DNA from: Desulfurococcales archaeon
Lineage (GTDB): Archaea; Thermoproteota; Thermoprotei_A; Sulfolobales; Desulfurococcaceae
Direction: 5' to 3'
Assembly: GCA_027067785.1 (NCBI GenBank)
Contig: JAMOVL010000033.1
Location: forward strand, 1 to 38,042
Length of the DNA: 38,042 nt
The notes beneath the pieces were generated by a model. It worked only from the letters and a program-made list of their open reading frames with translations, was not told the DNA's origin and made no database searches. This document shows, piece after piece, positions 5,275-8,518 of the stretch; the stretch's first letter is position 1, and each line of letters opens with the position of its first letter. Position numbers and translations under genes: made by a program.

Positions 5275-5997
5275 TCATTTTTTCTTTAAGCTTATATGAA
5301 GCCTAGTCCTAGGCTTTCCGCTGCGTGTTCCCGCTACTTCATAGTTTTCCTTTACGGTGAGCCCAAGTCTATGGCTGAGCCTCCTTGCCAGTTTCCGTGC
5401 AGCTCCCTGGCTATAGAAATAGATGTCTAGACCATTACGCGTCTCTATTGCCTCTATGTAGTCTCTTCCCAGTCTGGGCTCCTTATAGAATTCGTCCTCG
5501 ATAACCCTCTTGATCTTATCAAGGTTTACCCCGCGTATCTGGATAAGTGCTTCATACTCTCTACTATCATACATTATGCATCTGGGGCATTTGGTCGGTC
5601 TAAAGAATATTGTTAATCTCAGAGGAACCTTGAAGGATGCGCCACCATATTTACCTGATATAATAATATCAATGTCTGTGTGCCATGAGGGGGTTGAGGC
5701 GTATCTATAACCATCTATATTGACCTCGTTGACGCCTTCAGCATAACTTATTTTATCACGGATATAGTTGTGCACTATATAATCGATTGCTGATTCGAAA
5801 CCATCAGTATCGATCCACTTAAATCCTATTTTTAATGAACCACAGACTTTACAAAGGTCAAAATAGAACTTATTCTGCTCTAAACGTACGAGTTCTCCTC
5901 TTTTGATCCTGCACTTTAAACACACGGAGCCTATTACAGGGTTATCGGGGGAATCTCTACTTCCACAGTAAACACAGAATCTAGTCAATATGGACAC
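5275..5997 (-). CDS. NMD3 family ribosome export/assembly protein
   Basis: Archaeal homologue of eukaryotic Nmd3, which binds the 60S subunit late in assembly. Zinc-binding cysteine pairs are visible: CVYCG at residues 8-12, CLKC near 27-30, CKVCG near 49-53 and a later CPRC near 145; the rest reads as alternating strands and helices with a basic C-terminus (SGKPRTRLHISLKKK). At 240 residues it has the archaeal core without the eukaryotic export tail. The start is GTG at 5997, inside the end of the upstream PAP2-like gene (17-base overlap), which suggests coupled translation. It is followed by the regulator gene. Confidence 0.82.
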   Translation of the reverse strand: MSILTRFCVYCGSRDSPDNPVIGSVCLKCRIKRGELVRLEQNKFYFDLCKVCGSLKIGFKWIDTDGFESAIDYIVHNYIRDKISYAEGVNEVNIDGYRYASTPSWHTDIDIIISGKYGGASFKVPLRLTIFFRPTKCPRCIMYDSREYEALIQIRGVNLDKIKRVIEDEFYKEPRLGRDYIEAIETRNGLDIYFYSQGAARKLARRLSHRLGLTVKENYEVAGTRSGKPRTRLHISLKKK

Positions 5998-6621: not shown

Positions 6622-7746
6622 CTAGGTGTTCCCCCGTTTTTGTTCTTTACTTGTAGCCTTTTTCTCAAGTTTCTTTTTTCTCCATAAGTTTCGCCTGTAT
6701 ACTATTAGGGGGTTCTTAGCACCACAGTCTCCGACTACTGGACATAGTCCAAGGCTTTTCATGGTTTGACAACTGTACGGCATGTATTGTTTTCTACTCC
6801 CCCTTAACCCAGCTATATGTTCGATCTGATAACGAGCTATCTTCTCGTTGAAATCAGGCACGTTTCTAAAGAGATCTAGGATATCCTCTACATCCATACC
6901 GATCCTGGCGAGAAAGGCTGTTATTGTAAAGCGGGCTTGGTGTGACAGGTTTTCCCCGGAGCGTAAGGCCTCGACGAGTTTTGACATACAGGGTGGAAAT
7001 AGTTCGAAATCAATTATTCCCATAGCTTCTCCTTTTCCAGCTTGTTCTCTAGAGACTTGTATTCTATACCAGTTGATCTTGTTCAGTATTTCTTTCGCTT
7101 TTTCGAGAATCGGTTTCAGTTCTTCCGGATCCACGTTAAGCTTGCTTATTTGTTTCTGTATGTATATGGTTATCGCTTCTTCAAGTATTCTTGGAAAGAC
7201 TTCCTTGTCTAGATAAACGTAGCCTTTATGTACTATCTGGTTCACGATCCTATACTTTGGTTCTCCGGAGAGCCTTGCAGAGAATTTTAAATAGTCTTTG
7301 AAATATACGGCGAATGGTTTTGATATAAATGCTAATGTTCCACGTATTATTTTTACAGGTATTCTCGGGGGATTCCTTGCTTCGATAATGTTTATTCCGA
7401 GCCTTCTAGCGATCGCTATAAGGGTTGGAATGTTCTCGTGTCTGAGCCTCTCATACGCATGCTTAGAGTAAGCAACAGCTACGCGGTTGATGAGCCTTCT
7501 ATCGCCTAGTGCTTTTACAATGGATATCAGTACGTAGTATGCGACAATCTCCTCCTCCGCGCTGAGCTTGCCTTTACCTATATCACGTCCTCTGATTATC
7601 CTTTCAAGCAGAGATAATGCTCTCCTACCGATCACGTTCTCTGGATCGGCGAGAGTGGTGAAAGATGCTCCTGGCCAGCGATAATCTATTATAGAGTCAA
7701 CATCGGCGATGAAAGGGTAGTAGCTGTAATCTATTATCACGGCCAT
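6622..7746 (-). CDS. priL: DNA primase large subunit PriL
   Basis: Non-catalytic subunit of the archaeal/eukaryotic-type primase, needed for initiation of primer synthesis with PriS. The C-terminal iron-sulfur domain is clear: Cys253 (FPPCM), Cys326 (YSCQ), Cys335 (GLCP) and Cys341 (DCG) are the four ligands of the [4Fe-4S] cluster, with the conserved LSHQARFTITAFLA helix between the first two. The length (374) is normal. priS is not in the window. The gene heads the minus-strand run priL - PAP2-like - NMD3 - Lrp, and the two C/D-box-like RNA candidates lie directly upstream. Confidence 0.94.
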   Translation of the reverse strand: MAVIIDYSYYPFIADVDSIIDYRWPGASFTTLADPENVIGRRALSLLERIIRGRDIGKGKLSAEEEIVAYYVLISIVKALGDRRLINRVAVAYSKHAYERLRHENIPTLIAIARRLGINIIEARNPPRIPVKIIRGTLAFISKPFAVYFKDYLKFSARLSGEPKYRIVNQIVHKGYVYLDKEVFPRILEEAITIYIQKQISKLNVDPEELKPILEKAKEILNKINWYRIQVSREQAGKGEAMGIIDFELFPPCMSKLVEALRSGENLSHQARFTITAFLARIGMDVEDILDLFRNVPDFNEKIARYQIEHIAGLRGSRKQYMPYSCQTMKSLGLCPVVGDCGAKNPLIVYRRNLWRKKKLEKKATSKEQKRGNT

Positions 7747-7775
7747 TAGTGATTACCCTTCTAGAACCCATGGTT

Positions 7776-7840
7776 TTGCTCAGAGGGGACGGATACCGCT
7801 CATCGCGTACGCTCGCCCGATGGCGTACACATCACTGCGT
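7776..7840 (-). ncRNA. C/D-box-like guide RNA candidate (downstream member of a pair)
   Basis: On the minus strand, a box C-like GTGATGT (7835-7829) is followed by a hairpin (GCGTAC 7823-7828 with GTACGC 7807-7812), a C'-like CGATGAG (7805-7799), a 15-base spacer (7798-7784) and box D CTGA (7783-7780). No clear D' box was found and the flanking terminal stem is weak. The hairpin between the boxes is unusual for archaeal C/D sRNAs, which normally have about 12 bases there. The gap between the protein genes (7747-7993) is otherwise empty. The target is unknown. Confidence 0.35.
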
Positions 7841-7885
7841 CTAATCATTATCTTTTGGTCACAGAGATAAAGGTTTATGGTGCGA

Positions 7886-7966
7886 GCGGCGATCAGCGCT
7901 TTGGCCCCACATCACAGTTCAGGATACCTCCCTTAGTGGGAGGTCCCCACTCATCATTTCCGCCAA
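7886..7966 (-). ncRNA. C/D-box-like guide RNA candidate with internal hairpin
   Basis: On the minus strand, a terminal stem GGCG (7964-7961) / CGCC (7891-7888) encloses box C ATGATGA (7957-7951), a 7-bp hairpin (ACCTCCC 7944-7938 with GGGAGGT 7932-7926, loop of five), box D' CTGA (7922-7919), C' TGTGATG (7916-7910), a 13-base guide-like spacer (7909-7897) and box D CTGA (7896-7893). All four boxes and a terminal stem are present in the right order. The C-to-D' interval of 28 bases with a hairpin is longer than the usual 12. It lies 27 bases from the end of the gene at 7994. Confidence 0.5.
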
Positions 7967-7993
7967 ACAATAGTAATCCGGTTTTCCCTTAAA

Positions 7994-8518
7994 TTATTCT
8001 TTTATATCAAACACTATTTCCTCCCTACCTCCAACAAGAGTGCCCGGCTTAACTCGGAACCACAGTCCACGCCCGTTAGGCAGTATTTCGTAGGGTACAC
8101 CTACTTCCACCTTAACTACTCTGGCGTTTACGGGTAGGAACCAATAGACTATGTATTCATACTCAGCTCTTTCTTCCTCGTAGATGTTCACGTATTTGTT
8201 TATTCCTTTACGTAGTTTACCGGCAAACTCGATGTTGAACACAATGTAGGCGTATCGTCCTCTCTCCTTAACGCCAATATTAACATCCACTACTCTTGGA
8301 TAGACCCTCTCATCATTTATGTAAACTTCTTCTTGATCAAGAAAGTACTGCATGTTTTCTCCAAGCATTTTCAGCTCTTTGGATAGGGCAACTGGTCTCC
8401 TTAAAAGTCCTGCATAGTATTTATCCGGATCATAGTACTCGAATATGACTTCCTGGTCCACAAGTCCGTTTTCATGCATGAAGAACAAACCATATGCGTA
8501 GACGGGGCGGGGCTCCAT
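7994..8518 (-). CDS. Conserved-looking protein of unknown function
   Basis: A soluble, strand-rich protein of 174 residues, rich in Tyr, Val and Glu, with no signal peptide or membrane segment. It opens with RPVYAYGLFFMHENGLVDQE and has a repeated pattern of beta strands (VYPRVVDVNIGVKERGRYAY, VVKVEVGVPYEILPNGRG), suggesting a beta-sandwich or barrel. No cysteine or catalytic motif stands out. The start ATG (8518) is preceded by a strong GGTGATC ribosome binding site. It is separated by 39 bases from the membrane regulator upstream on the same strand. Family not recognised. Confidence 0.65.
   Translation of the reverse strand: MEPRPVYAYGLFFMHENGLVDQEVIFEYYDPDKYYAGLLRRPVALSKELKMLGENMQYFLDQEEVYINDERVYPRVVDVNIGVKERGRYAYIVFNIEFAGKLRKGINKYVNIYEEERAEYEYIVYWFLPVNARVVKVEVGVPYEILPNGRGLWFRVKPGTLVGGREEIVFDIKE

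Follow-up and report, generated by a model that had tools for sequence, protein, structure and literature searches.

Archaeal box C/D guides are thought to require a fixed spacer of about 12 nt, and the locus upstream of priL raises the question of what a hairpin does where such a spacer should stand. In the window, the 38,042-nucleotide stretch of a Desulfurococcales contig analyzed here, an intergenic gap (7747–7993) separates priL (6622–7746; DNA primase large subunit, PF04104 E = 4.3e-41), the downstream neighbor of RNA2, from an unclassified gene (7994–8518), all on the minus strand. The gap contains two minus-strand predicted box C/D sRNA genes, RNA1 and RNA2, with family-wide conservation; across five genomes of the genus both are near-invariant amid diverged intervening and flanking sequence. 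An earlier note on this DNA had seen a strong hairpin in both RNAs and suggested a variant C/D class. Both ideas hold for RNA1, whose conserved 7-bp hairpin recurs in most of the family with a sequence tied to 23S rRNA pairing, and both fail for RNA2, a canonical double guide whose 6-bp hairpin is not conserved. Downstream of priL on the same strand lies an NMD3-family gene (ribosome assembly/export factor, 5275–5997), and the same genome carries a second PriL-like sequence with 37% identity (G000:C26:5919–6221).

Two box C/D sRNA genes and their tRNA guides

RNA1 (7887–7964, minus strand) carries box C (ATGATGA, 7951–7957), which is invariant in the genus, and, as located by comparison of relatives, box D' (CTGA, 7919–7922), box C' (GTGATGT, 7909–7915) and box D (CTGA, 7893–7896). 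A conserved terminal stem of 5 bp (GGCGG/UCGCC, one G-U) joins box C and box D, and the internal D'/C' loop is short (CTGA-ACT-GTGATGT; spacer of 3–9 nt in relatives). The four boxes and the terminal stem of the earlier note were thus all located; it had staked its claim on box conservation in relatives, and the boxes are conserved. The exception to an ordinary layout is the region between C and D', which spans 28 nt in the window and 20–39 nt in relatives where a guide of 10–12 nt with its target at N+5 would be expected. The Rfam sR3 model matches 7961–7891 with E = 4.8e-4 and 23.3 bits, below its gathering threshold of 41 bits. Within the genus (five genomes) the boxes are invariant save the first base of C', the stem is nearly so and the loop varies; all changes fall on the base after box C, on one stem base (A to G, still paired as G-U), on the loop of the hairpin, or on the first C' base and the D'-C' spacer before it.

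With a model built on RNA1, hits at E ≤ 0.01 were obtained in 80 of 214 genomes from the order, among them almost all members of the family. At the loci checked the match sits just upstream of priL in the family, whereas the sister family (f5) has it elsewhere. Other families gave weaker matches in which the D guide is retained, several of them with canonical C-D' spacers of 10–12 nt and other guides. The D guide is therefore the more widely shared part of RNA1, and the hairpin form is a feature of this lineage.

That D guide (GGGGCCAAAGCG, 7897–7908) fills the 12 nt between C' and D and forms 11 bp with positions 31–41 of mature tRNA-Gln(UUG), which places U34 at N+5 from box D. The segment GGGGCCAAAGC is the exact reverse complement of the spliced anticodon arm GCUUUGGCCCC, with the splice point deduced from the stem, and an intron-bearing tRNA-Gln(UUG) gene is present in the window's genome. 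Um34 has been measured in the tRNA-Gln(UUG) of S. acidocaldarius and is ascribed to C/D guidance (PMC7668247). From its sequence, the C'-D half of RNA1 is predicted to be a standard guide for 2'-O-methylation of U34. The tRNA-Gln(UUG) and (CUG) genes of the genus carry an intron at 37/38 (L215, L233 and others), and the D guide fits the spliced form best. When the bases next to D' were considered as a guide, they varied among relatives and gave no significant target. A 14-pair match to tRNA-Ser(GCU) was rejected, as it rests on the variable loop and on the window sequence only.

In most of the family RNA2 (7778–7839 in the window, minus strand) is found 11–81 nt past RNA1, on the upstream side of priL. 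Its boxes are C (GTGATGT, 7829–7835; ATGATGA in relatives), D' (GCGA, 7813–7816; GTGA or ATGA in relatives), C' (GCGATGA, 7800–7806, from the genus and other relatives) and D (CTGA, 7780–7783, from comparison within the genus). The C- and D-like boxes reported earlier are real and conserved, and the D' box, 12 nt past box C, had been overlooked. With it the layout reads GTGATGT-12-GCGA (ATGATGA-12-GTGA in relatives), followed by a spacer, C', a guide and CTGA. The D' guide (GTACGCCATCGG, 7817–7828) forms 11–12 bp with tRNA-Leu(UAG/CAG) at a predicted Um44 (shuffle P = 0.006), and tRNA-Leu(UAG) is present in the window's genome. The D guide (7784–7799, ending in TCCGTCCCCT) gives a weak match of 10 pairs, including one wobble, to positions 22–31 of tRNA-Leu(CAA/UAA) with G26 as predicted target, which is not significant on Watson-Crick pairs alone. 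The 6-bp hairpin was rejected as a feature: it is the D' guide paired with the D'-C' spacer, genus substitutions in that spacer weaken or break the pairing, other relatives lack it, and RNA2 folds no better than shuffled sequences (z = +0.78).

We also observed that U44 and G26 of tRNA-Leu, on which the RNA2 guides (7784–7828) are predicted to fall, form the 26-44 tertiary pair. The modification m22Gm26 occurs in thermophilic archaea according to a statement in PMC7668247. As 26 and 44 pair in the tRNA, it is suggestive that RNA2 may methylate both partners.

A reading of the conserved segment as a short coding frame or as the priL mRNA leader is hardly credible. An ATG..TGA frame of 22 codons does run over RNA2 (7848–7780), but changes of inter-box length in relatives break any frame while the boxes and guides persist, and the position of RNA1 away from priL in the sister family argues against a leader.

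A 23S rRNA antisense and an in-cis copy of its target in RNA1

The first 10–12 nt of the C-D' part of RNA1 are a perfect complement of 23S rRNA (GAGGUCCCCA). The antisense element AGTGGGGACCTC (7940–7951), with the core TGGGGACCTC at 7940–7949, begins at the last base of box C and forms 12 perfect base pairs with 23S GAGGTCCCCACT in three genera (shuffle P ~0.01 for 11 bp). Its target in domain IV lies 3' of GAATGGATCAAC, just 3' of a GAAUGG motif, at a site that we take to be near helix 71; a search for E. coli numbering by alignment gave no match. As rRNA genes, 23S among them, are absent from the window's own assembly, the 23S sequences of genus and family mates were used, and for G042, G043, G116 and several f1 genomes, where 23S was not recovered, the family site was assumed (for G116, the f3 site from G117). 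Matching to rRNA and tRNA sequences, a check proposed earlier, gave targets for the RNA1 C-D' part (23S), the RNA1 D guide (tRNA-Gln(UUG)) and the RNA2 D' guide (tRNA-Leu). We searched the family for another canonical sRNA directed at the same 23S site with the exact pattern TGATG-N1-4-GGGGMCCTC-N0-3-CTGA and found none; two stray matches occurred in other families, one with overlapping D' and C'. The 23S genes of several relatives are split by inserts near the target region (L193–L205), and the 16S of the genus mate G001 appears to carry an insert of ~640 nt (L053 286–1256).

The antisense is folded into a hairpin. Its 5' arm (ACCTCCC, 7938–7944) overlaps the antisense element and its 3' arm (GGGAGGT, 7926–7932) imitates the 23S site GAGGT. 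The C-D' segment of the window folds better than shuffled sequences (z = −2.46), and most relatives fold the antisense into a hairpin of 6–10 bp whose 3' arm copies the 23S site. By a strict test, 28 of 39 distinct spacers have a 3' arm complementary to the antisense (1.2 expected on shuffling), and a few more form the hairpin with one mismatch. In the subset with tetraloops all 66 of 66 pair cells hold standard pairs, the stem pair 7-20 is A-U in six sequences and C-G in five, and sliding the partners against each other abolishes the agreement. The distal stem pairs change jointly across genera (CC/GG, CA/TG, TATT/AATA), while the loop is free to vary in sequence and the stem in length.

The 23S gene supplies an independent molecule against which this hairpin can be read. 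In 41 of 42 sequences the 9-nt antisense core pairs with the 23S of its own family; in none does it pair with the site of the other family. Where the 23S base is T in f1 the guide base is A (G, a wobble, in two), and where it is G in f5 the guide base is C. The 3' arm makes the change three-way: in the family, 23S GAGGTCCCC goes with guide GGGGACCTC and a GAGGT arm, and in the sister family 23S GAGGGCCCC goes with guide GGGGCCCTC and a GAGGG arm. Many sequences probably inherited this exchange from a single evolutionary event, and what gives it weight is therefore the fit to 23S. With this three-way covariation, the RNA1 hairpin and its link to 23S are well supported. A search for covarying hairpins upstream of priL, as the earlier note had advised, finds one in RNA1, which covaries with 23S, and none in the relatives of RNA2.

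The antisense is also kept in six sequences that lack the hairpin (G104, G102, G103, G010 and G100, all of genus g6, and G008). The hairpin is thus not essential in every relative, and this pattern suggests that constraint acts primarily on the antisense rather than on the hairpin. The lack of the hairpin in some relatives, and a stability that is marginal at growth temperature, would suit a reading in which neither RNA departs from the ordinary C/D type, the hairpin having been inserted without selective effect and the 23S match being what is left of a guide in decay. We consider this quite unlikely: 41 of 42 sequences keep an unbroken core, both the core and the 3' arm changed along with 23S, and neutral sequence would not track its target.

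The earlier note had also offered protein binding as a task for the hairpin. A protein could bind to a conserved, short-looped stem, but loop and stem length are free, and constraint falls on the 23S-complementary arm, which changes with the 23S site and takes in TGGGG beyond the basic stem. These observations disfavor protein binding and make it very improbable as an explanation.

A reversible rRNA-binding arm as a proposed function

Archaeal methylation needs its target at N+5 from D', and a 12-nt spacer works best (PMC7994747, PMC8413462). The antisense of RNA1 ends 17 nt ahead of the D' CTGA in the window's genus, so methylation of 23S by the N+5 rule is not expected. In the main rival reading, methylation could proceed normally if a degenerate D' (NNGA) in the hairpin loop, 13 nt past box C, were used, with the 3' arm and the downstream CTGA then forming an enlarged D'-C' spacer. 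NNGA (UUGA, AUGA, AAGA) stands at exactly spacer positions 14–17 in more than half of the 39 distinct relatives, its position is held despite other stem lengths (G091, G024, G014, G009, G021) and in the sister family, and N+5 would hit a paired G of GAGGU. The loop tetramer in the window's own genus is, however, ACTA, AATA, AAAC or AGTT; NNGA is also absent in G018, G095, G020, G006 and G019, and in 11 tetraloop hairpins its GA is merely the start of the 3' arm. A CTGA separated from C' by a short spacer is found universally and makes the better D' box, and we regard methylation through the loop as unlikely.

We find it rather probable that RNA1 is instead an sRNA with two jobs, a guide for Um34 of tRNA-Gln and a masked, reversible 23S-binding arm, alongside RNA2 as an ordinary tRNA-Leu double guide. 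We hold with less than even confidence a more specific model, in which RNA1 is switchable: the in-cis 23S mimic would mask the antisense and, as ribosomes assemble, allow it to bind domain IV reversibly and without methylation, the wobble base of tRNA-Gln being methylated by the other half of the particle. In the main reading, the 9–12 nt of antisense directly past box C would be held in the hairpin by the 3' arm that copies the 23S site, and its first 4–5 nt (TGGGG), unpaired in the basic hairpin, would serve as a toehold. The 23S would then displace the 3' arm, which would later re-pair and free the rRNA. The C-D' half would most likely be a reversible, chaperone-like rRNA-binding arm. We infer that the RNAs are expressed and that RNA1 exchanges partners through the toehold, leaves 23S unmethylated and has a chaperone role.

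Computed stabilities are compatible with such an exchange. At 85 °C the hairpin is worth −1.9 kcal/mol and the guide-23S duplex −8.0 kcal/mol, so the stronger duplex means that the 23S target can win; at 92 °C the window's hairpin is marginal (−0.4 kcal/mol). When closed, the hairpin leaves ~9 unpaired nt between C and D', close to the usual 12, and with this single-stranded length the particle could still assemble. Naked RNA1 can extend the hairpin helix into D', an extension that should be of no consequence when L7Ae is bound to the D'/C' loop. When one archaeal spacer is lengthened, only the substrate of that spacer is affected (PMC8413462, citing Tran 2005), and by this one-sided effect the tRNA-Gln side of RNA1 should work. 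On one side RNA1 departs from the 12-nt spacer rule, and does so in a conserved way, while also containing a mimic of the sequence it pairs with. Nature may here provide an example, open to experiment, of rRNA binding by a guide RNA without methylation and of built-in control over guide access.

RNA1 and RNA2 among known guide RNAs

RNA2 is ordinary by comparison with known guides, and RNA1 is well supported as a box C/D sRNA with a conserved self-masked 23S antisense that would act on 23S. Our search of the open-access literature, with subscription papers outside its scope, found no self-masked or hairpin-bearing C/D guides. The archaeal double guides compiled by Dennis et al. 2015 (489 RNAs, PMC4644070) resemble RNA1 in their C, D', C' and D boxes, short D'-C' loop, 12-nt C'-D guide and combination of tRNA and 23S targets, and 23S helices 68–71 are a known guide hotspot (PMC4644070). 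They differ in a C-D' distance of 10–12 nt, against the 28 nt (20–39 in relatives) of RNA1, whose antisense adjoins box C rather than box D' and is masked by an in-cis target copy. Rfam sR3 (RF01133) shares the boxes and their overall order with RNA1, whereas its guides differ and the fit requires a long C-D' insertion. A Sulfolobus C/D sRNA for Um34 of tRNA-Gln(UUG) (Ziesche 2004, Lowe database, cited in PMC7668247) is predicted to act on the same nucleotide as the D guide of RNA1; it was compared by description rather than by sequence, and the passages of PMC7668247 that describe it mention no hairpin. A further parallel is with N. equitans sR15 and sR17, candidate chaperone double guides for which, as for RNA1, rRNA binding is proposed to matter beyond methylation (PMC4644070). 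For each of these two, methylation is predicted at both rRNA target sites, whereas the 23S arm of RNA1 is not expected to methylate its site.
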